IMG/VR virus record: IMGVR_UViG_3300030329_003549
Span: 1-37,045 of that record
From: a virus
Length of the DNA stretch: 37,045 nucleotides
Direction: 5' to 3' (one strand)
A program made the translations under genes and the position numbers. Below are positions 7,796 to 35,652 of this stretch, piece after piece. Position 1 is the first letter of the stretch. Every line of letters begins with the position of its first letter. The notes under the pieces were generated by a model, which was not told the DNA's origin, searched no databases, and worked only from the letters and a program-made list of their open reading frames with translations.

Positions 7796-8224
7796 AATAT
7801 CTCCATATATAATGGTTGTAGTATCCCCCTGAGTAGCAAAACTCCATTTTTTCATCTCAACTTTACCTTTACTTGAAGCCAGTAATTTCTCCCATACTTC
7901 AAGATATATGATAAAGCAATTTTCGTCAGTTGGAGGGGAAACCTCTTTATCCTATATGGAGAGTAACCCACCTTCTGACCCCTACAGCAGAACTATTTCA
8001 AGGGTACTGTCTGGGTGATAATCATTTGATTACTGACATCTTAATATATACTAAATAATATTATCAAGCAAGAAGGTTTCAAAATTATAGCATTTTATCG
8101 TGTGGCTTTATTTATAAGGGTATCCCCTTATCAGGGGATTTTCACTAACGTGTTTACGTTATTTTTGATTTAAGTTTTTGAGTTTTTTTTGTAGTTTAAT
8201 TTAATTAATTAAGGAGAAATAAAT
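7796..8224. promoter_or_regulatory. Divergent control region with several inverted repeats
   Basis: This ~430-base stretch has no convincing gene and separates the leftward late unit from the rightward early unit, so promoters for both should lie here. Visible pairings are CTTGAAG 7872-7878 with CTTCAAG 7897-7903, GTCAG 7925-7929 with CTGAC 7975-7979 enclosing GAGG/CCTC 7933-7945, ATCCCC 8122-8127 with GGGGAT 8134-8139, and AACGT 8147-8151 with ACGTT 8156-8160. I cannot point to a convincing sigma70 promoter. The final 60 bases before 8225 are almost pure A/T. Confidence 0.6.
8147..8166 (+). terminator. Hairpin plus T-run ahead of the first early gene
   Basis: AACGT-GTTT-ACGTT is followed at once by ATTTTTG. 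It looks like a small intrinsic terminator pointing rightward, 60 bases before the 118-aa gene, and could act as an attenuator or insulator. A hairpin-type phage promoter is an alternative reading. Confidence 0.4.
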
Positions 8225-10419: not shown

Positions 10420-10704
10420 ATGAGTGAAGGAGCATTAGAATACAAACTAATAGAAGAAACTAAAGTTAATATAAAGGTAAGTGATATTATTGACAGATTA
10501 GCTAGTATTGTAGATAATAGGTTAGAAGAGTTCTGGCTATATGATGAAGAACCATATCTAAGTAATAATGATAATGGGGATAGCGTAGAAGTATATCTTG
10601 TAGCTGATAGTGTTCAACAAGGGAGTCCATGTGATTGGAAAATATTGTTTGATAAAGCTATTGAAAAATTAGCTAAAGAGATATTAGAAGAAGAATCTGA
10701 ATAA
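10420..10704 (+). CDS. Acidic hypothetical early protein (94 aa)
   Basis: Not recognised. ATG 10420 is preferred to a TTG two codons upstream because AAAGGAG lies seven bases before it. The product is acidic and mostly helical (VSDIIDRLASIVDNRLEEFWLYDEE), with a short strand (DSVEVYLVADSV) and a closing helix (KILFDKAIEKLAKEILEEESE). The regular alternation suggests a compact folded protein. It is followed by a structured 100-base gap, so it may end a sub-operon. A charge-mimic or inhibitor role is conceivable for so acidic a protein, but nothing specific supports it. Confidence 0.72.
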   Translation: MSEGALEYKLIEETKVNIKVSDIIDRLASIVDNRLEEFWLYDEEPYLSNNDNGDSVEVYLVADSVQQGSPCDWKILFDKAIEKLAKEILEEESE

Positions 10705-10718
10705 TTGTCAACCCAACG

Positions 10719-10791
10719 AGTGAGCCCAAGGGTAATGTAAGTCCTTGAATGTTAAGAGACAGAAGGCAATCATCCCTAGGGCGAACTCACT
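10719..10791 (+). ncRNA. Structured intergenic segment closed by a long bulged stem
   Basis: AGTGAG-CCC (10719-10727) pairs with GGG-CGAA-CTCACT (10779-10791), with a four-base bulge. Inside, CAAGG 10727-10731 pairs with CCTTG 10743-10747; base 10727 is shared, so the two helices compete there. It holds the 10-mer TGTAAGTCCT (10736-10745), also found in the structured gap at 18251-18260. It may be a leader, processing site or small RNA. Confidence 0.4.
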
Positions 10792-10807
10792 AAATAAGGA
10801 GTTTAAA

Positions 10808-10888: not shown

Positions 10889-11413
10889 ATGGGATATGAT
10901 TTATATGGTAATTCACCACAAGCCTATGAAGGGAAAGAGTTTCCAATTTATACTAAATATAAAGATATGGATTGGAATGAAAAGGAAGAACATGCTGATT
11001 GGAAGGAAGAATGTCAGAAATTTTGGGAAGAGCAGCATACTTTAGATAGAGAGACAGGTAGTTATTTTAGAGCAAATGTGTGGTGGTGGCGTAGATTATG
11101 GATGTTTACATGTCATGTATGTGAAGATGTGATGACTGAAGATGAGATGAATGCTGGTGATAGTAATAGTGGCCTTGAAATATCTGAAGAGACATGTGTT
11201 AAAATGTTGCCATTGATGAAAGAAGCTTTAAAAGATGGTAAAGCTATTGAATATGAAAAGGCAGTAAAAGAATATCATGAATCTGTACCAAAAGATAAAA
11301 ATGGATGGGTAAAGAATGATGATGATTTTATGGCCAATTATCCATTTACTGTGCCATTCTTTGAAGAGTTCATTACATTCGTAGAACGTAGTGGAGGATT
11401 TACAATATCTTAA
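10889..11413 (+). CDS. Conserved phage protein of unknown function (MGYDLYG... type, 174 aa)
   Basis: The N-terminus MGYDLYGNSPQ and the block GSYFRANVWWWRRLWMF (near residue 57) match the style of a widespread phage/prophage protein with an MG-x-D-L-x-G start and YFR-N-VW-WRPLW signature. I know of no assigned function. The middle has CHVC, and residues ~100-150 are helical and Lys/Glu-rich. The end returns to aromatic residues (YPFTVPFFEEFITFVERSGGF), possibly packing on the WWW block. The start is fixed by an ideal RBS and abuts the upstream microprotein stop. The large structured RNA region begins right after its stop codon. Confidence 0.8.
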   Translation: MGYDLYGNSPQAYEGKEFPIYTKYKDMDWNEKEEHADWKEECQKFWEEQHTLDRETGSYFRANVWWWRRLWMFTCHVCEDVMTEDEMNAGDSNSGLEISEETCVKMLPLMKEALKDGKAIEYEKAVKEYHESVPKDKNGWVKNDDDFMANYPFTVPFFEEFITFVERSGGFTIS

Positions 11414-11414
11414 A

Positions 11415-11989
11415 CCCAACCAACCCTGTTGGGCATGGGTTATGTGCACGGGGGTGACCATAATACCACTCAAAAACTAGTCAGAAGTAAATATGCCTCA
11501 CCCCAAAGTTTATAGTAGCTAACTATAGCTATGGCAGTCCTGAGAAGTTAGCCTAAGTTTATTCCAGGAACTCTTGTGTAAATCTGATACGTTCAAACGA
11601 AATGTTTCAAGAGCACTACCATAGAATGAGAAAAAAGCTATAAAATTGATGTAATCATGTCAGTCACGGACACTGAGTTATCATGTAGGGATCTATGAAA
11701 AGAGATAACGGTAGTTTGTAGATCAGTCTAAGAGAACCTGTATGGCGCTATTATGCCTCGGCTAGCTAATTCGAGTAGACGCATATTAGTTGCATTGATT
11801 ACATCATTAATTTAGGTAATGCCAGGGAACTGGTGTTTTCTAGTCGAAAAGAAATAAGGTGGATATTGACAGGCGAAGTGCCAGTGCCACTGTTGAGAAC
11901 TAACTTGAAGCTTCTGCAGATATGTAGTTGCTCATAAGAAAAGCTCATCAAGTAAACTCACTTAACGAGGGTCAAGCCACCTTTATTTC
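11415..11989 (+). ncRNA. Large structured non-coding RNA candidate (~575 nt)
   Basis: No gene-length frame with an RBS fills 11414-12023, yet the stretch is full of complementarity. CCCAAC 11415-11420 pairs with GTTGGG 11428-11433. GGGGTGA 11451-11457 pairs with TCACCCC 11498-11504. GCTAAC 11518-11523 pairs with GTTAGC 11547-11552, and CTCTTG 11571-11576 with CAAGAG 11608-11613. GATGTAATCA 11648-11657 pairs with TGATTACATC 11796-11805 (10 bp) and encloses GTTATC/GATAAC 11677-11709 and AGCTAAT/ATTAGTT 11764-11791. CCAG-GGAA-CTGG 11822-11833 is a GNRA hairpin. GAAATAAGGTGG 11851-11862 pairs with CCACCTTTATTTC 11977-11989 (12 bp, one bulge) and encloses two more hairpins. The density of long-range helices implies a folded RNA. 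Its size recalls the ornate phage RNAs GOLLD and ROOL; membership is unproven. Confidence 0.7.
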
Positions 11990-12023
11990 TATATCTATAA
12001 ATATCAATATAAGGAGAAAAACA

Positions 12024-12335
12024 ATGGAATTATTAACAAAAGTGATAAAAGAAGAGGCAGAGAAACAATTCACTAAAGCTGATGATATGAATCAGAAAGT
12101 AGTAGCTAAGTTCTTTGATCCAGTAGGTAGTTGGACATGGTATCTAATGAATAAAGACCCTGAATCTGATTATTGTTGGGGTATTGTAGATGGTAATGCA
12201 GTAGAAATAGGATCATTTGGATTAAATGAATTGCAAGAGTATACAGGACATTTTGGATTAGGTATTGAGAGAGACACATCTTATGAACCTGAAAAAGCTA
12301 TAGAAGTATGGGATAGATTGAATGCGCGCGACTGA
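12024..12335 (+). CDS. DUF2958-like protein (103 aa)
   Basis: The sequence VVAKFFDPVGSWTWYLMNKDPESDYCWGIVDGNAVEIGSFGLNEL has the DUF2958 pattern: KFF-P, a W-TWY strand, an acidic loop, WG-V-G, then an E-x-G-x-F-x-L-x-EL helix. That family is common on plasmids and phages and its function is unknown. The start ATG 12024 follows AAGGAGAAAAACA; an upstream TTG at 11928 would run into the structured RNA and is rejected. It ends in helix (YEPEKAIEVWDRLNARD) and overlaps the next gene by 14 bases. It is the first gene after the large RNA, so any regulatory effect of that RNA in cis would fall here. Confidence 0.82.
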   Translation: MELLTKVIKEEAEKQFTKADDMNQKVVAKFFDPVGSWTWYLMNKDPESDYCWGIVDGNAVEIGSFGLNELQEYTGHFGLGIERDTSYEPEKAIEVWDRLNARD

Positions 12336-20168: not shown

Positions 20169-20199
20169 ATAGGGATGGGGGTTAGCGCCCCTATCCTAT
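20169..20199. terminator. Bidirectional terminator between the convergent units
   Basis: ATAGG-GAT-GGGG (20169-20180) folds on CCCC-TAT-CCTAT (20188-20199), with an internal mismatch. It overlaps the final codons of the 1007-aa gene and follows the last early gene by nine bases. It is placed to stop both units. Confidence 0.7.
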
Positions 20200-23100
20200 T
20201 CTAGATAAAGAACGTAGAACCTTACGCCTTTCCAATTCTGACATTCGTCCTGTAGCAGGAGCTTTCTTCTTACCTTTTTTACCAGTACCATAAAGCCACC
20301 TTGACCATTCTTTTTGTTCTTTGTCAGGGAAGAATCCAAGTTCTAACCAGAAAAAATCTTTTACACCACCTGATTTCCATGCATTAGAAGAATATGCATA
20401 TGTTCTAGCAGCTTGAGCATTTATCCAAGATAATTGTTCATAAAGTTCTTGGTTTTCATTTCTATTTACAGATTTACGAATTGATTCATTGAATACTTTA
20501 TGTTTCCATCCATGCCTTGGATCTTCTGGACTTCCCATAGATGCGTGTAATAAATATTCATATATGCCTGCAGCCATATCGAAATTAGGGAACCATCCTC
20601 TTGGACCAAATCCTTGGCCATAAGTAACTTCATCAACCCATTCTTGAGTTTCTTTACTAATTTCACCTTCTTCGAACTTTTCCTTACTAGACATTAACCA
20701 TGCAGTCATTTTCTCTGCAGTTTCCGCTATATCATTACTTGCTAATTGTTCGAAGTCAGTCCTAGTTACAACAGAAAGCATTCCTATCATCGGCATCAAC
20801 ATACCCATTCTAATTGCTTTGCCAACTTCAGAACTAGTAAAATCCTTAGCTTTTATAGAATGTCCTGCATCTCTAGCCCATCCATACATAAGGTTAAACA
20901 TATTAAATCTATAATGTGCAAATTGTCCCAATCCAGCTTTAGCAAACTGCACTGTTTTTGATTCATCTCCACGAACTCTTATAGCTTTAGCTTTGGCCCA
21001 CTTAGAATATTCAAAATGCAAGTCCAATGTAGCATTATATGCAATTTCACCTGCAGTATTTTCTATCCACTCAGCAGCTACTCTTTCATGCTTAGCTCCA
21101 TGAATATTCATAACATCATCATAAGTAATTACATAATCTTTACCTTTTTCTCCCTTAATCTTTTCGATAGTAGCTTTCCCTAACATATTTCTTGCCAGCC
21201 AGCTACGATCAGATGCTTCTAAATTTTGATGAGCTAAAGCAAATGCAGTATCAAATGTTTTAGATCTGTTCCAGTCTTCTACAATTTTATGAAACTTTCC
21301 AGTGAGCTTTGTAAGACCTGTTGTTGCTCTAACAACACGCTCTGTCGCTCTTTCACCATCTTTAACTTGTAATTCTCCATTTTTATCTACAAATAAATCT
21401 TTCTCTAACATATAAGCATCATCCAATGCTCCACGAGATTGCTCACTTATATTTGCTGTACCATCTTTGCCCATAACAGCATCCCAAGCATTTGAAGTTT
21501 TACTTTTACCATCATACCATTGAAGACCACGTTTCTTTTTTTGCCTAAGAGCTTTTCCTTTATTATCCTCTGTAGTACCTGAATCTCTATACCATCTAGC
21601 TGCATCCCATAAAGCCCTTCCACCAAATTCAACAAATTCATACATTCTTTGAGTAGCATTTCTAGCAGCAGAACGAAGGTTGCCTCCCATTAATCTAAAG
21701 TAAGTCACAGAAGTCATGAGTCTAATAGCATCTGTCATATAGTTTTCTTTCAATGGATCTACAACTTGAATTTCAGTTCTAACATCATCTAATAAGTTCA
21801 ACATATCCATAGATGCTTCTTCTAAATCCTTCCTGCCTGCTTCTTTAGCTGGATTTAAATGTTCTTTCTGGATAGTTCTAACAGCATCTTCAAATGTAGC
21901 CTTTACATGAGTTTTGTAATTAAAAATACCAATATCATTCACATATTTTTTCAAGAAATAATAAGGATCTGCGTCATAATATTTATCAATAATAGGGCTT
22001 CTATGTTTTGCGATATCTACTATCGTCTCGTCCCACTTATTTAATTCCAGCTCTAACTTTTTATCTAAACTTAATTCATGCCTATCAACTGCACTTTCTA
22101 AGTTTTTAATTGTCTTCATTATACCTAATGTATATTTAGACATATAATGTGGGGAGAAAGCAAGCTTTCCATCACTTACCAATCTTTCACCAGGTTTAAA
22201 TCCTAAAGCCAAGAAATCTTTATCACCAACCATATCTTTATAAGCAATAGTTTTTCCTTCAGTGTCAACAGTATGCTGAAACTCAATAGCCTTTATCATA
22301 CCCTTTATTCTTTCAACAGTTTTGTCTACCCAAGGAAGATTTTTTTCCTTAGAAATTTGTAAGATTTTCTCCAATCCACGAGTAAGACTCACAACACCAT
22401 TTTTGCGAATCTCAACCATATTCTTCTTCATTTTGTATAGGTAATTTTTTTGACGACTATTTAAGTTAACTCCATCTAATTGAATACTTTCTACATCAGC
22501 ACCTTGCAATACGCTATTAATAACTTTATAAGCTCTTCCTGCTCCAATTTCATAAAATCTTTTCAAATCATTTTGGATTCCTGACATTTCAGCTACCAAT
22601 CTTTGCTTTTCAAGTACATTGGTAGTATTTGCAATTTTCTGTTCTAAAATTTGCCTACTATTCTGTAAAGCTCTAATTCTTTTTTGCCCTGCATCGCTAA
22701 GAGTTCTGAGTCCTGGAGTATCCATAACAGAAGAACCTAGGCTTAATCCCAAATTTTTAAATTCAGATAAAAATTCATTCACCTGCTTATTAGATGTTGT
22801 AGTAAAGTCCCTAAAAAAAGAAGTTTCTTTTATTAATTGAGTCTCAAACTTTTTTAACTCAGGAACATTTTGCATAGCTGCACGTGGCAAATGAAACTTG
22901 CTCCAAATCAAACCATCTTTCTTGGCAATCTTTTTATTATACAACCTCAATCCAAATTCAAACTTTCTAAAATCTTTAAAATTAGGTGGATGCTGAGAAG
23001 GATCTAGTGATTTATGAGTATATTTATTCCACAACCATTCAAATGTTTCTGGATTATTCCAACCAGAATCTTGAACATTTTTATAGGCAGCCCCTCTTTC

Positions 23101-23214
23101 CCATGCTTGAGCTAAATCCATCATTTTTCTATGAAGTTTCTCTTTATCAGCTGGTTTCATTTTATCTTCTCTTTTTCTAAGAAAAGATCGTAATCCACAT
23201 GTGAAAACTGACAT
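20191..23214 (-). CDS. Large putative internal/ejected virion protein (1007 aa)
   Basis: No catalytic family recognised. The protein is mostly helical and charged, with coiled-coil stretches (NSRQILEQKIANTTNVLEKQRLVAEM near residue 185) and an RLMGGNLRSAARNATQR element near 508-524 of a type I associate with large phage internal proteins. A methionine-rich hydrophobic helix (MGMLMPMIGMLSVV) lies at about 800-815, with a Gly/Pro/Trp-rich segment after it (GQGFGPRGWFPNF). It is the last gene of the late unit and directly follows the giant polymerase candidate with a TAATG overlap, so both are probably made together and carried in the particle. The start has GAAAGGAGATAGTTA. Confidence 0.7.
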   Translation of the reverse strand: MSVFTCGLRSFLRKREDKMKPADKEKLHRKMMDLAQAWERGAAYKNVQDSGWNNPETFEWLWNKYTHKSLDPSQHPPNFKDFRKFEFGLRLYNKKIAKKDGLIWSKFHLPRAAMQNVPELKKFETQLIKETSFFRDFTTTSNKQVNEFLSEFKNLGLSLGSSVMDTPGLRTLSDAGQKRIRALQNSRQILEQKIANTTNVLEKQRLVAEMSGIQNDLKRFYEIGAGRAYKVINSVLQGADVESIQLDGVNLNSRQKNYLYKMKKNMVEIRKNGVVSLTRGLEKILQISKEKNLPWVDKTVERIKGMIKAIEFQHTVDTEGKTIAYKDMVGDKDFLALGFKPGERLVSDGKLAFSPHYMSKYTLGIMKTIKNLESAVDRHELSLDKKLELELNKWDETIVDIAKHRSPIIDKYYDADPYYFLKKYVNDIGIFNYKTHVKATFEDAVRTIQKEHLNPAKEAGRKDLEEASMDMLNLLDDVRTEIQVVDPLKENYMTDAIRLMTSVTYFRLMGGNLRSAARNATQRMYEFVEFGGRALWDAARWYRDSGTTEDNKGKALRQKKKRGLQWYDGKSKTSNAWDAVMGKDGTANISEQSRGALDDAYMLEKDLFVDKNGELQVKDGERATERVVRATTGLTKLTGKFHKIVEDWNRSKTFDTAFALAHQNLEASDRSWLARNMLGKATIEKIKGEKGKDYVITYDDVMNIHGAKHERVAAEWIENTAGEIAYNATLDLHFEYSKWAKAKAIRVRGDESKTVQFAKAGLGQFAHYRFNMFNLMYGWARDAGHSIKAKDFTSSEVGKAIRMGMLMPMIGMLSVVTRTDFEQLASNDIAETAEKMTAWLMSSKEKFEEGEISKETQEWVDEVTYGQGFGPRGWFPNFDMAAGIYEYLLHASMGSPEDPRHGWKHKVFNESIRKSVNRNENQELYEQLSWINAQAARTYAYSSNAWKSGGVKDFFWLELGFFPDKEQKEWSRWLYGTGKKGKKKAPATGRMSELERRKVLRSLSRIG

Positions 23215-26200
23215 TAACTATCTCCTTTCAATAAGCAATCCCAATGGTTTTTCATCATCTGAGTAGTAGATTGATTAATACCGCCTCTTTCACCTAAATC
23301 TTTACGCCTCAAAGCATCTGCTTCATTTATAAATATCCTTTGTGAACCATATTCTCTAACAGTTCCATCTTCATTGGTGAGATATCGCTGCTTACCCCAT
23401 ATCCTATCTACAGGAATACCTGATGCCTCCATAACTTTAGTTGCTTTATATAATATTGAAGGATCAACTAGTTTCCCTGTTGCATATTCAATTAGAACCT
23501 TAGCAGCATTCCTTTCATTTGCATCTGAAGACTCACGTTTATTAAATATATCTTGAGATATCATTTTCTTTGTAGTTAAAGCTCCATCTAAACTAGCAGG
23601 CTCTGTATACATTCTAGATGTTAATAATTCAATGTCAATATGTCTATTTTTTGATGCGATATAAGCAATGTTTTTCATAATAGTAACATCATTTAAGACT
23701 TCATTAGCAAAGTCTTTTAGCATATAATCTGGCTTATATTCTCCACTAGCAATATCAGTAAGAAGGGCCATTGTAGGTTCATTTAATTTATTTTCTAAAT
23801 ACATATAATCAAATACTGCTTTTTTAGGACCACCTTGATTTACGCTTCTAATATTAACAATTTTATCAGATACATCTGGAGCAAGTAATCGTAATATCAA
23901 TGCTTTTCTATACACAGGATCATCTATATCCTTGAACAATGCATCAAATAATGTTGCTTTTCTTCTAATAGAATACTTAGCAAAATCTTCTCTTGACCTG
24001 AAATCTTTTTCTGCTAACTCTGCACCTAAACTTCTAATTTTAGCTTGTAATGAGCCATAATCTATATTTAAATATTCAACTAATTCATAAATATCCATTC
24101 TATGAACTTTACCATCAGAATCCCTAATTACAGGATTACCACCAAAAGCTTCTGCCAATATACGAAGTCCTTGTTGCTCATCCCCTGAAGTCACCTGATA
24201 TCTTTTCCCATTTTCAATCATTTTATGACGAGTTTTTGATATTGAATTTCTATTAGTTCTGTTTGGTTGAACGACTTCTACTATCTTTCCTTTATTGTCT
24301 AGTACAACAACAGCTTTCCCGCTTCTATTGTAAAAGTCCCCTTGGCCATAACCATAATTTGAAAGCAGCTTAGGAGGATTTATTTCATCATTTTTGCCAA
24401 ACATATAAGAAACAGATTCCTCCATGTCAGCTTTTAATTCTTTAACTCTACTCAATTGAGCAGTTAAATTAGCTAATTCCGTATTTTCTTCTGTAGGTTT
24501 TACAAATTTCTTTTTAGATTCAATTTCTATTGTTAAAGAACGTTCTCTTTTAGCTAATTCTAATAGCCTTAATACTCTAGATTCATCTTTTACATATTCA
24601 TTTAATGCTATATTAAATAATCTATTCTCTTGCTGCAATCTAGTTTCTCTTGCTCCCTCAATAAATCCATTCTCAATATAATCTACTATTTCATCAGATT
24701 TTTTATAACCCTTACCGAATGAACCTTCTTCTTTCATTGTACTTGATTTTATATGTACTCCATGCAATTCACGCATAGCAACATCATAAGGATTTTGAGA
24801 TTCATCGAAATATCTCATAGCACGATTCAATCCAGCTTCAAAATTAACCCTTGGGTCCAATCCCCATTTCCCAGCCTTAGAAATATCTAATGTCTTATTA
24901 TATAAATTAACAAAAGCTCTATTATAGTCTTCTATAGTAGCTCTAGTCTGAACTCCTGCTACATCAGTCTGAACACCTCTATTATATTTTAAATAAGAAT
25001 TTAAAGGATCGATAAGTCTAGCTCTAATTGCATCTCTGACAAATTTAAATCTATCATCCGTCAATTTATATTCATTGACCTTTTTAAAATTACCATAACT
25101 ACCTCTTTCTTCAACTCCTATGTCAAATATACCATTTTCTCCAAACCATATTTCGTCTTGCATGGATCTAATCTTATCTACTGAGGCAGTGGATGGCAAT
25201 CTGTCATACATATCTATAAATCTTTTAGCCATGTCGCTAATATTGTCAACTAAATTAACATACTTACCTGAATTATTTAAACGAACTTGAAGAGTAGCTT
25301 GATTAATATCTACTATATCACCAACATCAAAAGTAAGAAGTAAATTATCTGATTTAAACATATTAGATAGATAAGTAGAAGTTTGATGCATTTTTATAAA
25401 CTGTCCTCTAGCAACATTAACCTCGGCTAATATCATATCATTTGTATAATCCCCAGAAATTAAATCTGGCAATGTTTTGGCAAAGAATCCTGTCTGCACA
25501 TTAGGGTCAAATAGTCTATTGATAGCTCCATCTTGTCCTTCACTAGAACCAGTTATATACCCTGCAACTTTATTTGTTTCTCTCCAAAACTCCCCAGGAG
25601 CTGCAACATAATTAAATGATTTATCAAAGTCGAAATCAGCATCTTGGGGTTTAATCGCATCGACTGAGTTCATCATACTTGTATTCCCTGCATTCTCATC
25701 TACATGAGCTTTACCATCTACTATAGCCATCTTACTGATAACAACATCACCAATCATATTTCTAGGCTGTCTTACATTTAGCATTCCTACGCTCAATCCT
25801 AGTGGATCTAAAGACAATGCTGCGCTTGCAAGAGTAGTGTTTTCATCTATAAGCAATCTTCCTTCCTGATCTTTCATTTCATATGCTTCTTTTTCTATTC
25901 TTTCTGCACGTCTATATGCAGCAGAATTATTACTATCATATTCAAGATGGAAAAAACCTGGATCATCAATATCTCTCAATCTACCTTTCTCATCTATAAA
26001 TCTTCCCTCTACTTGAAGAAACTTCTCTCCCTGAATATCTACTAGGAAGGCATCTGCTTCCCTCATATTCCCATCTTCAGCTTTATACTTAATTCTTTGT
26101 ATTAATACATTATGTACTCCATTTAGCTCAGAACCAGGCTTTTTAAAGAGTTTTTGTGATGCATAGTATGAGGGTAGGAACTCTCCGTAATATTGCACTG

Positions 26201-29200
26201 TAGGCCTATCATTGATTGTAGAACGCACACTTATATCTAAGTTACCGTAATCTGCAGTCATAACGTCCAAAGAACCATCTTCAACGACTCCACCTGAAAT
26301 AGAACCATTGTTTATATAATAATTTATAAGATTTTCTTCAAGTTTTCTTTGAGCCCAAGGCTCTAATATTAATCCATCTCTAGATAGTATTGAACTGATA
26401 GCACTATTAGTCATAGAAGGATCACCAGTTTCTGTCATAGATGATACAACTTTTTGACCTAATGCTGTTCTGAAATAGGGGTCTGTATACATAGTATTCA
26501 AGTCATCTTTATACGCTGTAATCTTTCTTTGTAATCCAATCCATTCAGAGATACCATTCTTATCACTCATATGGATACCTGTATTTGCAGCTACTGAAGG
26601 ATCATGCTCTTTAGATATTGTTCTCAAGCTAAAGGATTCCAATGGAATTTCAGTTATGACATCCTCAACTCGCTCCCTAATAGTATTTCTGTTAACATAA
26701 TCATGCCATCTAATAGGTAATTGCTCTGACGCTACAGGGTTTAAGTTAGCAAATCTATCGGTAGTATCTTCTCCTACTCTACGTTTAAATAAATTCTTTT
26801 TATTAGATGAAGAAAAGGTAAGCATATCAACCCCTAAATCACTCATTAAATCATTCATAACAGGATTATATTTAAATGCAGTTTTACCAAACCACTGTTC
26901 TACTTGACCATAATCAGAACCATCTATTCCCTTACCTTCTGTGACTATCTTAGAATGAGATATTGTAGGTTTTATTCCTCCAGATTTAAATCCAACTACA
27001 TTACCCGTAGCATCAGTTCTAACCATATCTGGATGCAACCCAATCATAGCCATTGAAGCTAAATAAAATTCCTTTGTGACAAAAGTCTCTCCATCAACAA
27101 TTGATTTCTGAGCATCTCCTATCAACTTTAAATTATAAAGATAATCTGGATTGCCTCCTGATCTATCATCACCAAAATCTCCATTGGCAAGCTTTTCATC
27201 TAACTTTACTTTAGCTCTATCTAAACTATTAAATATATTATATTCATTGTTGCTTCTATCAAAGTCAGTTTTTTCATCTTTTATAGTAATAGATTTTACT
27301 TTCTTATCGGCTTCAAACCAATCTTTCACTTGGTCATAAACATTATTGTACAATCTAGACTTACTATTTTGATACATCTTAGCTGTTTTAGCACGATTTT
27401 CAACCGTAGGGACATATCCATTTTTAGTTTCATTCAATTTATCATACTTATAATTACGCTTAATTCTAGAATGTTCTAAATTTATATCTCCATTTCCTAC
27501 TACAAACTCAACATCGTTAGGCATATTTAATAGTAATCTAGTTAGTTTTATTCCCTGAACTACAGACATGTCATCTTTACCACCTCTTATAGTTTGCAAT
27601 AAATCTCTAATAACTTTATGCTTTGGAGTGTCTAAACCTAAATCACCATCATATAGAGCTTCAATTTTTTTATATAACTCTCCACCTTGTGAATATTGAA
27701 TAGCTAATTCCCTATGAATAGAACCAGGACTTTTATCTACTCTAACAACCAAGGAAGTAGATTCATTTATTGGAATAATCTCAAATCTCTCACCTTCTAA
27801 CGAATGGTCTTGATTTACATCTTTTAATTTACTTACATCATCTGTTTTATAAAATTCAGATTCAGCCTTTGAATGTTCTATGCTAAAATTACCTGACTTC
27901 AATGCAGAGTTATATGCTGCTAAATCTCTAGTATTAATGTCCCTAATAGACTTTCCATCCATATCAATGCCTGTACGCTCTGCTAAATAAATAAAGTTTT
28001 GACTAGGGTCTAATAGCTCTAAAATACCTGTTAAGCCACGCTCCTTTGTATTCCCTACTACAGACTCACTTTGTATTAATTTATTGGTACGCAAGTCAAG
28101 CTTTAAAGTTTTAACAACTCTTTTAGAGAAATAATTAGAAGTGATACCATATAAATCCGAATCCATTTGAGCTTGTGAGGGCTTAAGTTCATTAGGCATA
28201 TTTTCAACTTCAATTCTCATTTTAAGTTCTAATGGCTTAACTACAAAGTTCATAAAATTATCATCACTTAAAAGAACATCTCCAGATAATTGTTCTATTT
28301 TCCTAACAAGACTCTTCACATCTGATCTCAATTGAAGACTTCGGATATCTCCTGTTAATTCATAATAATCACCTAGAATATTTCTAGTCATAGATTTTAA
28401 ATCTTCAGAAGATCTCCTTGTAGACCTATCTATTTCAAATAACTTATCAATTTCATTCATAGGCATACGATACTTATTAGAAAAGATAGGAGTAGTAATC
28501 CTCATTGAATTATCCTGAACATCTTTATCTTGAATATTCTTTGAACGTAGTTGCTCTCTAATAAAAGCTTGAGCTGAAGTTTCATTTAATACAATTTGTT
28601 GAGCTTTATCCTGAACCTCTTTAGCTATTCTTAATACATTCTCTGCATATTCCATTCTAGATGAATTGGCTGGACTTTGAGATAATAAATTGAGTACACT
28701 TTCTATATCTCCTTCTTTTCTAGCTAAAGCTCTCAATGTATAGGGGTCATTGTCTTTTAATGCAGTCTTTAAAATTTTCACCAAATCCATAGTTGCTTTC
28801 ATTTCCTTAACAACTATATCCATCTGCTTCTGAACTTTCTCTCTACCTGTAGTATCAAGATTATTCATACCTGATGAAAGCCATTCTAATTGCTTTTCAA
28901 ATTTAGTAACCTCATTATTTAAAAATTCAGAATATTGACCAATCCTATCAAATGCTATATGATCAAGCGCAGCTTCGCCTGTAGCTTTAGATTTCAATAA
29001 TGCTCTATACCAATCACCTTCTTTATTTTCAATAAGATTATCATCAAATGTCATTGGATATTTTGAATCAGCAGCTATAGCCATAACCTTTTCATAATGT
29101 GTTTTTAATGAATTGTAAGCTTCATCGCTTATAGCTCCACTTTCTTTCATAGCCTTTAAATGATTGCCTATAGATTCTACAGATGGAAGAACGACCTTAT

Positions 29201-32162
29201 AACCATCGCCTTGATAATTCATACCTGCATCATTTATAATAGTTCTAAAACTAGCCTTAACATCTATCCCTGCATTAGCATCATGCAATTGCAATTTATC
29301 CAAAGACCTATCAAGTATATCATTTTTAAAATCTCTGAAAGCATCAGGATTCCTAATCAAATCTCCTACAACACTTTCTATTCTTTCTTTTATTGCAGTA
29401 GCTTGTTCAAGTGTTAGCTTTGTAGGACTATTCTTAACAACAGTTGGATTTAAATCAAGAACTACACTATGCAATTTATCTATAAAATCCTTCACCTCAC
29501 CATAACCTTCCACATCTTTGGCTGGCTTTTCAATTGAAGGTAATTGCTTATTTAATATTAAATTTTGCAACATAACGAAAGTATCTCTTGCTTCACCAAG
29601 AGGAGCTCCATGCTCATTCCCTCCTGTTAATAGCTGATAGCCTCTTTCTATTTGCTGCAATTTCAATGCAGTATCATAAGTAAAGTGGAATGATCTATCT
29701 CTTAATATATTTAAGTCCAAATCAATCTCATCTCTCCATCTAGGACCATAAACTGAATCCATCATTCTCTCAGAATATTTATTAAAGATTTCAGAAGCTT
29801 TGGTTTGTTGGTCTCCAGACATACCTCTAAATTCTGAAGGTAAAGCTGTTCCAGGTCTTATCCAATTATTATCTATTCCAAATTGATATACAGTAGCAAA
29901 TGTTTTACCTGCATCAAAATCTGCAAAATTTAAAGCTTCTCTTATATCAGGCACTACCATTTCGTCAAGCTTAGTCCCTGCTTCAATAGGAATACCCAAA
30001 GCTTCATAAGTTTCAATTATATAATTTCTCATTATCTCATGTTTCTCTGAGATACTTTTAATTATATTGCTTCTAGTCCACTCTTTAAACTCAGGGTCAA
30101 TATTTAAAGTACTTAATTCCTTACCATTAAATTTAATAGTTGCAAGTTCATTGACTATTTCAAATGCCTGGACTGGTGTATATTGTTTGATATTAATAGG
30201 ATCACCACTATTACCTTCATATATATCTATAATTTTTCTAGCTATATGTAATTTATCTTGATACATAGTAGCTTGCTCTAAAGTAAGATCACCATTTTTC
30301 ACAAGTTCGCTTGTATATTTATTAAAACCTGTAACTAAATCAACTCCTGTTAAATCTTCATTCCCTACATACTTTTTAAATACATTTTCTATTTCTTTAA
30401 ATTCAGGGGTAGCATCCATTTGCCTTTTAATACTATTGCTAGCAGCTTTATTGGCTTCATCGCTCATTCTACCATCGCCAAAAACATAACTAATAGATTT
30501 CAACTTATCCTTATCCATTCCAAATGTTTCAAGACCACCCATTATTTTCTTAAGCTTATTAGCCTTTCCTACTATATCTCCTTGTATCTTACTGGTCCAC
30601 ATAGGAACATCACCTGTTTGGAATACTTTATTAAACCATCCAGGTTTAGTAGTATCGGTATGGAAGCTATGTGGCTTTCTAGTAAAAAACATAGCAGTCA
30701 TAACATTAGCTGCTATTTCATGTAGAGTTTCTCCCATAGCCATTCTAAGCGATTCCATGCTTAATCCATTATTATAGAAACTATGAGCTAAGCCCATGCC
30801 ATTCATTGCAACTACACCAACTCCCATTCTAGGAAGAGAGTAAAACATATCTTTACCAAATTCTTTAGTCCATTCTATTGGAGCATTAACTATGAACTTT
30901 CTTCTAAGAGCACTTAAGTACTCTCTCATCTCAGCAGTCCCTGCATCATCTGTAGCTGTAGCCCACCAATTATCAGGCTTATTTCTCCACTTCATGGGTA
31001 ATTTAGCATCTAAATAGCCACCAGATATCTTATGCATAGCTGTAATCTGAGCTCTCAACTCTTCATTGCTATATTTCTTTAAAGGCTTGTAATAACTAGA
31101 GGAAGCTTTACTTACTATTTTACGCATTCTAGATAAATGCTGTCCCGAAGTACCACCTCTCCAGAACTGAACGGGACCCAATATTGACATAAACAGACCT
31201 TCAAATAAGGCTTCTCGCGCCCAATTCCCTGCTATTTTACCATAATTTAAATCATAATTATCTGGTTTGTACTTATATCCATCCATCCCTTCAAATTCTA
31301 CACCATAAGCCTTTTGCCAAGCTATATTTTGAGCTGTTCTTAAAGTAGCTATTCCAACCCCAATAGCTGCATCATAAGCCATAGCTCCAACAATATATCC
31401 AGACCGAGGACCTAAACCAGCTCTATTGGCTACGATATTCATCATTTGCATTGCATTTTTGGGGTTATTTCGAGAAACTATCTTAACAGCTTCAGTAGAA
31501 AGAGCATCAAGTATCTCGTCATCAGCTATATTTAGAGTCTTCTGCATATTACTACGCACAGTAGATCTCATCGTTTGCTCTATTATTTCAGCTCCTAAAG
31601 CTGATTCTATTTTATGAATAGCTGCACTTGCTTCTGCGACCTCATAGGCATCATCAATAATTTGAGTCGCTTTTTTAGAAGTAAGAACTTCACTTACTTT
31701 TTTACGACCAGGAGATACAGGGAAATTCCCAGCCGCTTTAACTAATTCTTTTGTAGATTTAGCTGAAGCCCATTTAGTTCCAATTCCAGTAACTCTACCT
31801 AGAGTAGTAACACCTTTTCCAACAGCTTTTCCAACTAAAGAATATGGGATAAGATATCCGAGAGCTGTTCCTATCATATTACCAGCTCTACCTGAAGCAG
31901 ACAATTCATCCCAATCTCCAGCAGCATCCCCAGCTATCATCTCCTCCCAGGTATCTGCATCATCGCCATACACCCCTTCTTTGTAAGCATCTGCTGCATT
32001 CAGCAAACCCAATGAGCCTGTATCTGTAAATCCCCAAGCAGCTTGACCTAGAAAATCGTATAATGCATTTCCAGTAGTACCTTGACCTGTCTCTTCTATA
32101 AAGGTTCTTCTATTCTTACGTTCTCTTTCTTGGAATAAATCGTAAAGAGCATTATTGGACAT
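23214..32162 (-). CDS. Giant protein, candidate virion RNA polymerase of two-barrel type (2982 aa)
   Basis: One frame of 8949 bases. The segment 2129-2190 reads VRQPRNMIGDVVISKMAIVDG, then a variable loop, then KPQDADFDFDKSFNYVA. An R-x-P element (R2131, P2133) ~40 residues before a D-x-D-F-D-F-D motif (D2174, D2176, D2178, D2180) is the layout of the catalytic double-psi barrel: NADFDGD in bacterial beta-prime, D-x-DGD in QDE-1/RDR, DFDID in the crAss-like virion polymerase. An earlier LTFSSSNKKN segment (K1788/K1789) could be the partner-barrel lysine region. The N-terminal ~450 residues have several Gly/Ala hydrophobic helices (near 95-135, 255-275, 445-460), as in ejected proteins. It has a good RBS (AGGAGAATAATAA) and sits beside internal-protein genes. 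It would be ejected with the DNA to transcribe early genes; the rest of the chain is unassigned. Confidence 0.72.
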   Translation of the reverse strand: MSNNALYDLFQERERKNRRTFIEETGQGTTGNALYDFLGQAAWGFTDTGSLGLLNAADAYKEGVYGDDADTWEEMIAGDAAGDWDELSASGRAGNMIGTALGYLIPYSLVGKAVGKGVTTLGRVTGIGTKWASAKSTKELVKAAGNFPVSPGRKKVSEVLTSKKATQIIDDAYEVAEASAAIHKIESALGAEIIEQTMRSTVRSNMQKTLNIADDEILDALSTEAVKIVSRNNPKNAMQMMNIVANRAGLGPRSGYIVGAMAYDAAIGVGIATLRTAQNIAWQKAYGVEFEGMDGYKYKPDNYDLNYGKIAGNWAREALFEGLFMSILGPVQFWRGGTSGQHLSRMRKIVSKASSSYYKPLKKYSNEELRAQITAMHKISGGYLDAKLPMKWRNKPDNWWATATDDAGTAEMREYLSALRRKFIVNAPIEWTKEFGKDMFYSLPRMGVGVVAMNGMGLAHSFYNNGLSMESLRMAMGETLHEIAANVMTAMFFTRKPHSFHTDTTKPGWFNKVFQTGDVPMWTSKIQGDIVGKANKLKKIMGGLETFGMDKDKLKSISYVFGDGRMSDEANKAASNSIKRQMDATPEFKEIENVFKKYVGNEDLTGVDLVTGFNKYTSELVKNGDLTLEQATMYQDKLHIARKIIDIYEGNSGDPINIKQYTPVQAFEIVNELATIKFNGKELSTLNIDPEFKEWTRSNIIKSISEKHEIMRNYIIETYEALGIPIEAGTKLDEMVVPDIREALNFADFDAGKTFATVYQFGIDNNWIRPGTALPSEFRGMSGDQQTKASEIFNKYSERMMDSVYGPRWRDEIDLDLNILRDRSFHFTYDTALKLQQIERGYQLLTGGNEHGAPLGEARDTFVMLQNLILNKQLPSIEKPAKDVEGYGEVKDFIDKLHSVVLDLNPTVVKNSPTKLTLEQATAIKERIESVVGDLIRNPDAFRDFKNDILDRSLDKLQLHDANAGIDVKASFRTIINDAGMNYQGDGYKVVLPSVESIGNHLKAMKESGAISDEAYNSLKTHYEKVMAIAADSKYPMTFDDNLIENKEGDWYRALLKSKATGEAALDHIAFDRIGQYSEFLNNEVTKFEKQLEWLSSGMNNLDTTGREKVQKQMDIVVKEMKATMDLVKILKTALKDNDPYTLRALARKEGDIESVLNLLSQSPANSSRMEYAENVLRIAKEVQDKAQQIVLNETSAQAFIREQLRSKNIQDKDVQDNSMRITTPIFSNKYRMPMNEIDKLFEIDRSTRRSSEDLKSMTRNILGDYYELTGDIRSLQLRSDVKSLVRKIEQLSGDVLLSDDNFMNFVVKPLELKMRIEVENMPNELKPSQAQMDSDLYGITSNYFSKRVVKTLKLDLRTNKLIQSESVVGNTKERGLTGILELLDPSQNFIYLAERTGIDMDGKSIRDINTRDLAAYNSALKSGNFSIEHSKAESEFYKTDDVSKLKDVNQDHSLEGERFEIIPINESTSLVVRVDKSPGSIHRELAIQYSQGGELYKKIEALYDGDLGLDTPKHKVIRDLLQTIRGGKDDMSVVQGIKLTRLLLNMPNDVEFVVGNGDINLEHSRIKRNYKYDKLNETKNGYVPTVENRAKTAKMYQNSKSRLYNNVYDQVKDWFEADKKVKSITIKDEKTDFDRSNNEYNIFNSLDRAKVKLDEKLANGDFGDDRSGGNPDYLYNLKLIGDAQKSIVDGETFVTKEFYLASMAMIGLHPDMVRTDATGNVVGFKSGGIKPTISHSKIVTEGKGIDGSDYGQVEQWFGKTAFKYNPVMNDLMSDLGVDMLTFSSSNKKNLFKRRVGEDTTDRFANLNPVASEQLPIRWHDYVNRNTIRERVEDVITEIPLESFSLRTISKEHDPSVAANTGIHMSDKNGISEWIGLQRKITAYKDDLNTMYTDPYFRTALGQKVVSSMTETGDPSMTNSAISSILSRDGLILEPWAQRKLEENLINYYINNGSISGGVVEDGSLDVMTADYGNLDISVRSTINDRPTVQYYGEFLPSYYASQKLFKKPGSELNGVHNVLIQRIKYKAEDGNMREADAFLVDIQGEKFLQVEGRFIDEKGRLRDIDDPGFFHLEYDSNNSAAYRRAERIEKEAYEMKDQEGRLLIDENTTLASAALSLDPLGLSVGMLNVRQPRNMIGDVVISKMAIVDGKAHVDENAGNTSMMNSVDAIKPQDADFDFDKSFNYVAAPGEFWRETNKVAGYITGSSEGQDGAINRLFDPNVQTGFFAKTLPDLISGDYTNDMILAEVNVARGQFIKMHQTSTYLSNMFKSDNLLLTFDVGDIVDINQATLQVRLNNSGKYVNLVDNISDMAKRFIDMYDRLPSTASVDKIRSMQDEIWFGENGIFDIGVEERGSYGNFKKVNEYKLTDDRFKFVRDAIRARLIDPLNSYLKYNRGVQTDVAGVQTRATIEDYNRAFVNLYNKTLDISKAGKWGLDPRVNFEAGLNRAMRYFDESQNPYDVAMRELHGVHIKSSTMKEEGSFGKGYKKSDEIVDYIENGFIEGARETRLQQENRLFNIALNEYVKDESRVLRLLELAKRERSLTIEIESKKKFVKPTEENTELANLTAQLSRVKELKADMEESVSYMFGKNDEINPPKLLSNYGYGQGDFYNRSGKAVVVLDNKGKIVEVVQPNRTNRNSISKTRHKMIENGKRYQVTSGDEQQGLRILAEAFGGNPVIRDSDGKVHRMDIYELVEYLNIDYGSLQAKIRSLGAELAEKDFRSREDFAKYSIRRKATLFDALFKDIDDPVYRKALILRLLAPDVSDKIVNIRSVNQGGPKKAVFDYMYLENKLNEPTMALLTDIASGEYKPDYMLKDFANEVLNDVTIMKNIAYIASKNRHIDIELLTSRMYTEPASLDGALTTKKMISQDIFNKRESSDANERNAAKVLIEYATGKLVDPSILYKATKVMEASGIPVDRIWGKQRYLTNEDGTVREYGSQRIFINEADALRRKDLGERGGINQSTTQMMKNHWDCLLKGDS

Positions 32163-32165
32163 TTA

Positions 32166-33392
32166 TTATTCTCCTAATAGCGTTCTAATTTCTTCTTCAG
32201 TGGAATATCCATGTAATATTAAATCATCTATAAGCGTAGTAGCTATTGCATTTAGATTTTTACTTTGCTGTTGATCAAGCTCTTTAAGGCCCTGATAAAG
32301 TTCGTCTTTAACATTTAGTTCCACTAATCTATCTTGTACATCATAAAGAGAAGCTTGAATTGAAGAAATCTGAGGGCCCACTTCATCTCCATAACTTATA
32401 GTATTGCCTTCAGCATCGTGAGCAAATTTAAACATACGATTCTCAATTCTCTCTTGACCTTCACCTCTAAACCAATCAGTCCAACCAGCAAATACTTGGG
32501 TGATAGGGACAGCTAAACCTGATATAATAGTATGTGCAGACCGCTCATCCCAATCTTTCCTAAGATTATTCAACGAGCTAAGTAATTCTTTCTTTTGTGC
32601 CCTTAATGATTCCTTCTCCTTTTCTTTGCCAATTATATGAGCATGCATTTCCTCATATCCTTCTTGGCCACCATATTTTTCTTCGATTACTTGCTCATTC
32701 TTATCAATAGTATCTAGTAATTTCAGTATTGCATTATTACTCACTTCTTTCGAGAAAGTAAAAGTTTCTGGAGCATTAGGATCTTTACTAATTTCTATAG
32801 CACTAGCTAACATATGTGCATTAATTTCTTGCTGTAATTCAGGTCTATCGCTAATTATATCTGATATTTTAATCTTTCCAAGACTACCTGCATCAATAAC
32901 TGTTTCATCAATATATCTATGTTTAGCTTCATAAGTATCATAACTTTCCACTTTACCAAGAATATAACCTCTTATTGCTTCATACTTCTTAGCTTGAGCA
33001 TCAGTTTCCTCTGGAACATTTCCTTGCATAGATTCTCTTGAATTAACTTCTGAAAACTCAGACGTAGTATAAACATTAGCCACGCTATTCTCATTTACTG
33101 CATTAAAATAGTCTTCAGGATTATTCATCATTGCTTCTTCAACTGTGCTTAAAGCAAAATCAGCTTGTTCTTCAGTATATCCAAGCTCAGTTGTATAAAC
33201 ATCTTTAAATATATTAGGGTAAAATGCCAAAGCTAAAAGTTCTTCTCCAGCATATGCAGAATCTGCTCCCACATCTCCTCTATTTGCAGATGTCTTGTGA
33301 TGCATATTTATAAATATATTCTTAATATTCTCTTCAGAACCTAAATCTGGAATAGTTTCAAATGTGGGGTCATTGTAATATAAATTTGCCAT
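32166..33392 (-). CDS. Putative internal virion protein (408 aa)
   Basis: Not recognised. It is acidic and mostly helical, with a coiled-coil region (MHAHIIGKEKEKESLRAQKKELLSSLNNLRKDWDER near residue 255) followed by a hydrophobic stretch with aromatic residues (TIISGLAVPITQVFAGWTDWF). It lies three bases before the giant gene and one base after the previous one, without a clear RBS of its own, so translation is probably coupled. Its place between virion-like genes and the polymerase candidate suggests a part of the ejection machinery. No enzyme motif. Confidence 0.65.
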   Translation of the reverse strand: MANLYYNDPTFETIPDLGSEENIKNIFINMHHKTSANRGDVGADSAYAGEELLALAFYPNIFKDVYTTELGYTEEQADFALSTVEEAMMNNPEDYFNAVNENSVANVYTTSEFSEVNSRESMQGNVPEETDAQAKKYEAIRGYILGKVESYDTYEAKHRYIDETVIDAGSLGKIKISDIISDRPELQQEINAHMLASAIEISKDPNAPETFTFSKEVSNNAILKLLDTIDKNEQVIEEKYGGQEGYEEMHAHIIGKEKEKESLRAQKKELLSSLNNLRKDWDERSAHTIISGLAVPITQVFAGWTDWFRGEGQERIENRMFKFAHDAEGNTISYGDEVGPQISSIQASLYDVQDRLVELNVKDELYQGLKELDQQQSKNLNAIATTLIDDLILHGYSTEEEIRTLLGE

Positions 33393-33393
33393 A

Positions 33394-34713
33394 CTATTTT
33401 AAATGAAATTCCCAGTCAAATTCATTATTATTATTATCGGTTTCATCTAAAATATTTTGATTTGATTTCGCTAAAGGTCCCAGTATAAGGTCAGTTCTAA
33501 ATGATCTATATTCAGATACAAATTCTTCAAATGTCATTCTAGTATACCCAAACAATCTTTGAGTTATCTCATCCAACTCTTTCCTCGCATCTGGATCTTT
33601 ATCTTTATATGTATCCCAAGCATCTTCAATAAATCCCTCAAAATAAGTAAAATCAGAATCAGAAATAAGTCCTGTACCCTGATTATAAACAGGCACAGAA
33701 GCCTCATGAGCTGATATGTATTCTTGAAATACTTTAGATACATATTCAGATCTTTCTATTGGATCTATAGGAAATACCTCATCTCTTATTCTTGAGATAG
33801 CATATGCAATACCCTCTTGAATTTCAACTTGTTTCTGCTGGGAATACTCAACTGAATCTGCAGTATATTCTCCTTCAGGAGCTTTTACAACCAAAGCATG
33901 AGTATCAAAACCTTGCAAACCACTTTCTCTATATGCATTATTTACTCTAGTCATTACATATAATCTAGATTTATCTTCTTTCTCGTCAACAGTCTCATCA
34001 GTCTTCTTACTTTTCCATGATTCCGTTCTTGCCTCATCATACTCTTTTGAGACTCTACCTGCTTCTAGTATATTTAAAGATTTAGTAAGTTCTCCTGGGA
34101 CATTTTTATATAAGTTTTCTATTATCGGATTCTCTCCATAAAGACTTTTGTAGACATTGTAATCTATATCTCCTATATCCCAAGCCTCTGGATCATCTCC
34201 ACCTGTATATCCAGCTTCTGGATCTCCTCCTTGAATAAGCTGCTTAGCTTTTAATATATCGCCATAGATAACTTCTTTTAATTGCTCAATCTTAATTTCT
34301 GCATTATCCGCTTTATCTGAATAATACTCAGCCTTTTTAGCATAATCATCAGCTTGTATAGTACTTAAATTTTCCAGTACCTTTAAAGATTCATTTGTTC
34401 TAAATAGCTCATTCAAATCTTCAATCTCTGCGCCTGAAGCTAGATAGGTATTAGTCAACTCTTCCAATAGCCTTTCATTATCTCTATATTCATCCTTCAT
34501 ATCCTTATAATGAAGTAGATTAGCTTCCAACTCATTTCTATCTTCTATTAAATCTTTTTCATGCTGAAGCTTAGCGTCAAATCTCTCTTGTACAGCTTTT
34601 CGCTCTGCTGCTTCTCTTTCTCTTTCACCTTGAGCAGAATAGTATTGCATCAATAGTTGGGGTAATTGTTCTAAGAAGATTCCTAAATCACTTTTTTCAT
34701 ATACAATTGCCAT
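33394..34713 (-). CDS. Coiled-coil putative internal virion protein (439 aa)
   Basis: Not recognised. Residues ~30-165 form a long charged coiled coil (EREREAAERKAVQERFDAKLQHEKDLIEDRNELEANLLHYKDMKDEY, then AEIKIEQLKEVIYGDILKAKQLIQ). A Gly/Asp-rich linker (GGDPEAGYTGGDDPEAWDIGDID) and a helical C-terminal half follow, with an acidic Asn-rich tail. The RBS AAAGGATAAATAA is fair. A long coiled coil followed by a globular part fits core/internal proteins of podovirus-like ejectosomes, but no homologue is recognised. Confidence 0.68.
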   Translation of the reverse strand: MAIVYEKSDLGIFLEQLPQLLMQYYSAQGEREREAAERKAVQERFDAKLQHEKDLIEDRNELEANLLHYKDMKDEYRDNERLLEELTNTYLASGAEIEDLNELFRTNESLKVLENLSTIQADDYAKKAEYYSDKADNAEIKIEQLKEVIYGDILKAKQLIQGGDPEAGYTGGDDPEAWDIGDIDYNVYKSLYGENPIIENLYKNVPGELTKSLNILEAGRVSKEYDEARTESWKSKKTDETVDEKEDKSRLYVMTRVNNAYRESGLQGFDTHALVVKAPEGEYTADSVEYSQQKQVEIQEGIAYAISRIRDEVFPIDPIERSEYVSKVFQEYISAHEASVPVYNQGTGLISDSDFTYFEGFIEDAWDTYKDKDPDARKELDEITQRLFGYTRMTFEEFVSEYRSFRTDLILGPLAKSNQNILDETDNNNNEFDWEFHLK

Positions 34714-35181: not shown

Positions 35182-35652
35182 TTAACTAGTTTTTACCCAG
35201 TCAAAAGCACTTGGATCTTTACCCATATAAAGTTGTTTCATCAATTCCAATGAATCCGCTGACTCCATAAATCCTGCTGATACTCCTGATTTTACAGCGC
35301 TTGAAGTTATATCTCCCCTAAGGTCTTCTCCTAGCTTTTTAGCATCTTTTTTATGGAATATAGTATCTTCATGCTCCCCTCTAAGTATCTGTTTATTTTT
35401 TTTCGAAGTGAGGCCTTCTGCTCCTGCATGTCCTCCTACAAGTGATCCTATCCCTGTAGCTAATCCTGCTGCTAAAGCTGTTGAACCAACTACAGCTCCA
35501 ATAGGATTTGCTAGAAGAGCCATTCCTGCTAAACTTCCAAGAGTTCCACCTACTGAACCCCATAAACCTTTTTTCTTAGCTGCTGACTCAGTGGCCCTCA
35601 GATCTTGCTTAGACTTTAGCCCCATTTGATATTGCTTAGCTGCCCAACTCAT
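35182..35652 (-). CDS. Gly/Ala-rich membrane-active internal virion protein candidate (156 aa)
   Basis: Residues ~30-78 are a glycine-zipper-like hydrophobic segment (LWGSVGGTLGSLAGMALLANPIGAVVGSTALAAGLATGIGSLVGG), flanked by a basic, Gln-rich N-terminus and a charged C-terminal half. Such Gly/Ala-rich stretches occur in ejected proteins that span the host envelope, for example the T7 gp14 type. An ideal RBS (AAAGGGAGTTATAT) fixes the start. It is the first of four virion-like genes preceding the giant polymerase candidate and follows a small AT-rich hairpin (35685-35711). The channel-forming role is inferred. Confidence 0.65.
   Translation of the reverse strand: MSWAAKQYQMGLKSKQDLRATESAAKKKGLWGSVGGTLGSLAGMALLANPIGAVVGSTALAAGLATGIGSLVGGHAGAEGLTSKKNKQILRGEHEDTIFHKKDAKKLGEDLRGDITSSAVKSGVSAGFMESADSLELMKQLYMGKDPSAFDWVKTS

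Follow-up and report, generated by a model that had tools for sequence, protein, structure and literature searches.

Does a 2,982-residue open reading frame (ORF) in an environmental phage fragment encode an RNA polymerase, and if so, does the enzyme travel in the virion? The window, that is, the whole stretch of DNA that we analysed, covers the full length of one IMG/VR virus record (37,045 bases), which is classified as linear. The original prediction placed the ORF in a compact phage. The phage is less compact than the window makes it look, because these 37 kb are an incomplete fragment with both ends open and the contigs of its relatives are mostly 49–61 kb. Our preferred reading, to which we give a probability of roughly 0.82, is that the ORF encodes a single-chain two-barrel DNA-dependent RNA polymerase that is packed in the virion, ejected into the host and used on early genes, with activity, template and packaging being inferred. 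The ORF starts with ATG and is not interrupted. We divide it as follows, the functional labels being our reading.

23214–32162, minus strand: giant ORF, 2,982 residues, single-chain two-barrel RNA polymerase flanked by large N- and C-terminal extensions
27243–32162, minus strand: N-terminal extension, residues 1–1640, weakly hydrophobic at 96–114 and 256–274, mostly without a model
24903–27245, minus strand: modelled polymerase core, residues 1640–2420 (AlphaFold2 model; RDR2, QDE-1 and gp66 matched over model residues 4–781)
26523–27098, minus strand: lysine-bearing barrel (DPBB-B, beta-like), residues ~1689–1880, edges approximate (117 hhalign columns, model strands, invariant K1731, K1760 and K1788)
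26970–26972, minus strand: K1731 (G-[GA]-[IV]-K-P), candidate active-site lysine, invariant in 40 of 40 sequences, role inferred
26883–26885, minus strand: K1760 (K-T-[AS]), candidate active-site lysine, invariant in 40 of 40 sequences, role inferred
25548–26297, minus strand: catalytic barrel (DPBB-A, beta-prime-like), residues ~1956–2205, edges approximate (Rpb1 structural match)
25764–25772, minus strand: R2131-x-P2133, counterpart of the beta-prime NRAP motif, R and P invariant in 40 of 40 sequences
25623–25637, minus strand: D2176-x-D2178-x-D2180, putative metal-binding triad, invariant in 40 of 40 sequences (hhalign against crAss gp66 GSDFDIDK)
25359–25442, minus strand: long conserved helix, residues 2241–2268 (aRG-x-F-[VI]-KMHQT-x-TYL; model helix 602–629 and conservation)
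23217–24902, minus strand: C-terminal part, residues 2421–2982, fold not resolved

The motifs on which the original prediction rested are all present. R2131-Q-P2133 precedes D2174-A-D2176-F-D2178-F-D2180, which is the sole D-x-D-x-D site in the whole 2,982-residue protein, and what had been described as a GD/IDG strand pattern reads IGD (2137–2139) and VDG (2147–2149).

We collected relatives by scanning IMG/VR with residues 2050–2250, which gave 17 loci. Further alignment-based scans of IMG/VR raised this to ~40 distinct members that are 19–70% identical to the window protein over the core. A whole-protein pattern scan of IMG/VR had no matches, whereas the slice around the motif did retrieve relatives. 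Complete giant ORFs among the relatives are ~2,950–3,210 residues long. A scan of genome contigs also detected one contig in a metagenome-assembled bacterium (NZBM01000018.1) with the same gene order and ORFs of 479, 3,071 and 991 residues; this is likely a phage contig that was binned with its host or by mistake.

In the first whole-protein alignment, the block richest in invariant columns was 2126–2181. Across 40 aligned sequences, 24 of the 781 core columns are invariant (K1731, P1732, G1752, K1760, T1761, F1783, K1788, G1913, G1930, M1968, G1993, R2131, P2133, G2159, N2165, D2168, Q2173, D2174, D2176, D2178, D2180, K2181, D2317 and P2386). All five residues named before any alignment was made (R2131, P2133, D2176, D2178 and D2180) are among them (chance p ~1e-6 given composition). 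The prediction would have been refuted had the three aspartates varied among relatives; they are unchanged in all 40 sequences, including relatives down to ~20% identity. The residue between D2178 and D2180 is F, M or L, as in a site where, judging from the alignment, only the aspartates are constrained. In two-barrel RNA polymerases, lysines of one barrel contact the substrate. The DxDxD motif of the other barrel holds Mg2+ (PMC10770324). As far as conservation alone can tell, the invariant residues fit this chemistry.

Database searches did not name the protein. No relative was found in Pfam, in PHROGs, by phmmer against the PDB or by tblastn against isolate-phage genomes, and the PDB, Pfam and PHROG sequence searches gave no polymerase match. 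The PF00623 profile had no match in the window and did match the control genomes (n = 14). Searching PDB sequences with the family profile returned chance items only. A match to Wza (E 0.0015) is a 27-residue near-copy at the Wza N-terminus, containing QDADFDLDK, and was rejected as chance. Structure matches of the core model in BFVD were unnamed viral proteins (E down to 8e-18), so relatives have been deposited without a name. The family is absent from Pfam, PHROGs and isolate-phage records.

We therefore relied on a predicted structure. The first AlphaFold2 model (residues 1450–2640, 17 sequences) had a pTM of 0.44 and no structural match. A deeper alignment and a shorter stretch yielded a usable, template-free model of residues 1640–2420 (40 sequences; pLDDT 81.1, pTM 0.82). 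The best 13 Foldseek matches in the PDB were all QDE-1 or RDR2, with weak E-values (0.03–0.6). With VIA-align, RDR2 scored Z 13.5 and QDE-1 Z 12.4–13.3, over 365–390 residues; Pol I, Pol II, archaeal and viral RNA polymerases came after these, and gp66 of crAss phi14:2 scored Z 7.9 over 490 residues. All 50 VIA-align matches listed were RNA polymerases or complexes containing one; for the entry titled influenza polymerase, we assume that the match is to the Pol II chain in the complex. Model residues 2–753 aligned with QDE-1 694–1149, a range that presumably spans both barrels. Model residues 317–564 aligned with yeast Rpb1 341–510 (rmsd 2.7 Å, 112 residues, 19% identity). Counting back from the end of this alignment (model 564, Rpb1 510) places model D541, which is D2180, no more than about two residues from Rpb1 D485.

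The original prediction had proposed modelling residues ~1600–2300, and our slightly different slice bears it out in that the core matches two-barrel RNA polymerases. Metal-site geometry is not shown, because the loop that carries the aspartates has low model confidence (the block around 2170–2179 averages 46). We accept the catalytic barrel on the invariant DxDxD motif together with the Rpb1 barrel match, with that reservation about the loop, and the lysine barrel on the QDE-1-aligned range together with K1731, K1760 and K1788, whose roles are inferred. The helix at 2241–2268, which follows the catalytic barrel, is possibly a bridge-helix equivalent; the equivalence is not established and the role is inferred.

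We also compared the 40-sequence profile with ~70 crAss-like vRNAPs using hhalign, with 30 column shuffles as a score control. One of the two best local matches includes DADFDFDK against GSDFDIDK, and the other covers 117 columns of the lysine barrel, KSIVDGETFVTKEFYLA...VDMLTFSSSNKKN against TDAQAWITPKRW...ESIVLDGVKVG. Both are collinear, with the lysine barrel preceding the DxDxD barrel. Their scores were 27.4 and 25.2, and the shuffle maximum was 25.6, followed by 22.2 (n = 30). This profile link is not significant alone, and we treat it as suggestive. The fold comparison, the catalytic residues invariant in 40 sequences and the collinear profile match together support the proposed polymerase identity, and we are nearly certain that the giant ORF belongs to the two-barrel RNA polymerase family, from which RNA synthesis is inferred.

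Whether the protein is carried in the virion depends on its genomic setting, which includes the following neighbours.

20191–23214, minus strand: 1,007-residue ORF directly downstream of the giant ORF, no Pfam or PHROG match
32166–33392, minus strand: 408-residue protein encoded directly upstream, with poor conservation; by inference a candidate internal or ejection protein
33394–34713, minus strand: 439-residue coiled-coil-like neighbour, candidate internal protein by inference
35182–35652, minus strand: 156-residue Gly/Ala-rich hydrophobic protein, composition like that of podovirus ejection proteins, by inference

In the relatives, TerS, TerL and endolysin are followed by portal (phrog_156), a ~310-residue protein, major capsid protein (phrog_1328) and other late genes. 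Next come between two and four large, variable proteins, the giant ORF and the ~1,000-residue ORF. Beyond them, for the most part on the opposite strand, lie small genes, the primase-helicase and an Erf-type annealing protein. The primase-helicase of the original prediction was confirmed as a primase with a DnaB-like helicase. The giant ORF is co-directional with the terminase and, in relatives, also with portal and capsid, which the window lacks because it is a fragment. At 3–2674, after the endolysin and at the portal position of the examined relatives, the window has two adjacent Laminin_G_3 (concanavalin-like lectin) ORFs, probably inserted receptor-binding or decoration proteins.

TerL is 64–90% identical across the family, whereas the giant ORF falls to ~20%. 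The best TerL matches among isolates were podoviruses at ~25% identity, with no crAss-like phage among the best 40 of 605, and we infer a podovirus-like virion morphology. The proposal of a divergent lineage outside the crAss-like phages is supported by the lack of Pfam, PHROG and isolate-phage matches and by the podovirus TerL matches, among the matches listed. An ORF of ~940–1,055 residues directly follows the giant ORF in 32 of 33 loci, and the remaining locus ends inside that ORF. The 1,007-residue protein has invariant residues of its own (R270, P417, E646, N649, R650, T653, H733 and others) and no profile similarity to crAss gp65, gp66 or gp67; it may be the polymerase's partner.

Virion carriage was inferred from the late-gene position, the constant size of ~3,000 residues, the linked ~1,000-residue partner and the precedents of crAss-like phages, P23-45 and N4. 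There is no direct virion evidence; given the polymerase identity, we nevertheless consider carriage very probable. The gene, its family, the invariant residues, the predicted core fold and the synteny rest on the analysis itself, and what follows is inferred. The giant protein would be made with the late virion genes, both barrels (~1689–1880 and ~1956–2205) lying in one chain, and would be packed in the capsid with its ~1,000-residue partner and small internal proteins. On infection, it would be threaded into the host as the first DNA enters, and would transcribe early phage genes from a DNA template, with D2176, D2178 and D2180 holding the catalytic magnesium. The N-terminal 1,640 residues may, by analogy, serve packaging and ejection. 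Two weakly hydrophobic stretches give this role thin support: the membrane-like helices claimed earlier turned out to be no more than weakly hydrophobic, with best 19-residue Kyte–Doolittle means of 1.24 (96–114) and 1.51 (256–274).

The alternative that we take most seriously, although we consider it unlikely, accepts the two-barrel polymerase and denies its virion location: the enzyme would be made after infection for middle or late genes, like P23-45 gp64. The fold and the residues are silent on location, and there is no virion proteomics. The giant ORF nevertheless sits among the late genes, on the same strand as terminase, portal and capsid and away from the primase-helicase and Erf. Its non-polymerase extensions are giant and constant in size, and the neighbours to which it is linked are of internal-protein type. 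Catalysis might instead have been lost, leaving a degenerate or repurposed structural ejection protein that keeps the two-barrel fold. The missing glycine of DFDGD would fit this, as would the minor share of the protein that is polymerase and the absence of demonstrated activity. We regard it as improbable, given that the catalytic residues are all invariant in 40 sequences down to ~20% identity and that crAss gp66, also without the glycine, is a validated polymerase (PMC7886860).

Two further explanations seem to us more improbable still. An enzyme that copies RNA, like QDE-1 and RDR2, would agree with the top Z-scores of those two proteins, but the genome is that of a dsDNA phage, and DNA-dependent gp66 aligns over more residues (490), its lower Z perhaps reflecting its longer chain. 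Equally hard to sustain is a chance motif within an ordinary tape-measure or ejection protein. Short motifs can match randomly, as QDADFDLDK of Wza did (E 0.0015), but the invariance, the fold match and the second-barrel match contradict this explanation.

Turning to the non-coding DNA of the window, one segment is conserved even where the giant ORF is ~20% identical.

7856–8224, plus strand: conserved intergenic DNA, 369 bp, between the divergent late (TerS) and early operons, 66–81% across the family

It contains a CCCC/GGGG hairpin ~90 bp before the first early ORF and ACGT...ACGT near 8144–8160, and is a candidate early promoter or, equally, packaging site. It is conceivable, though we doubt it, that the window family is an independent single-chain two-barrel branch and not a crAss offshoot, possibly matching the crAss enzyme in its closeness to the ancestor of the eukaryotic RNAi polymerases, and that this hairpin-bearing late/early intergenic DNA is the promoter of the virion RNA polymerase. 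In the early region, ~600 bases (11410–12024) have no convincing ORF. Their predicted folding is more stable than that of shuffled sequences (z -3.0), and parts of them are conserved in a close relative; a large structured RNA is possible. A stable extended hairpin (z -2.8) lies in non-coding DNA at 10700–10800, one of several gaps among small early ORFs. Rfam searches of the window detected no RNA family.

Few single-chain two-barrel RNA polymerases are known from phage particles, and the window adds a further family of ~40 diverse sequences. Its podovirus-type packaging genes broaden the range in which cell-type polymerases are fused into injected virion proteins, and its ~40 sequences give depth for placing the phage and eukaryotic RNAi polymerases. 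The compact core of ~780 residues makes an expressible, testable enzyme. The case further suggests that polymerases missed by profile libraries may be concealed in giant, uncharacterised proteins of environmental phages.

We compared the window protein with known polymerases. It shares the barrel fold and the order RxP ... ADFDxD with cellular beta and beta-prime, which are separate subunits with a glycine in the motif (NRAP and NADFDGDQ in E. coli), whereas the window protein is a single chain without it. QDE-1 and RDR2 have the highest structural scores and the same single-chain two-barrel core, but they are eukaryotic RNAi polymerases of ~900–1,100 residues in solved chains, with another function and template. 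The virion RNA polymerase of the podovirus N4 is also giant (~3,500 residues) and its role is presumed similar, but it is a T7-type enzyme whose fold is unrelated to the two-barrel one. The window core has the two-barrel fold in place of the T7-type fold of N4, and the T7-type profile PF00940 was absent from 15 family contigs while matching the T7 positive control, which leaves the giant protein as the sole recognised RNA polymerase. P23-45 carries a virion two-barrel RNA polymerase fused to its tape measure (PMC10770324), and we read the presence of such a polymerase within a giant virion protein, gp96, as a likeness. The layout differs: the gp96 polymerase is N-terminal in a 5,002-residue tape measure (PMC10770324), whereas the window core is mid-protein (1640–2420 of 2,982). 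gp96 also keeps the glycine (VDFDGDT), which the window family lacks, and the window phages differ in having a podovirus-like terminase.

The comparison with crAss gp66 has two sides. There is no significant sequence match, the window protein is longer (2,982 against 2,180 residues) with ~1,640 rather than ~920 residues before the core, its DxDxD barrel lies farther from the lysine barrel, and the window phages have different terminase and replication genes and mostly smaller contigs. The original prediction had likened the loss of the DFDGD glycine to the crAss-like motif, and this stands: both proteins have DFDxDK, in which the usual glycine gives way to a hydrophobic residue and the third aspartate is followed by lysine. 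Both are also single chains in which the lysine barrel precedes the DxDxD barrel and RxP precedes the motif, with large flanking regions and neighbouring giant proteins. In crAss-like phages, the particle carries this polymerase, which passes into the host together with the DNA and there transcribes the early genes (PMC7886860).
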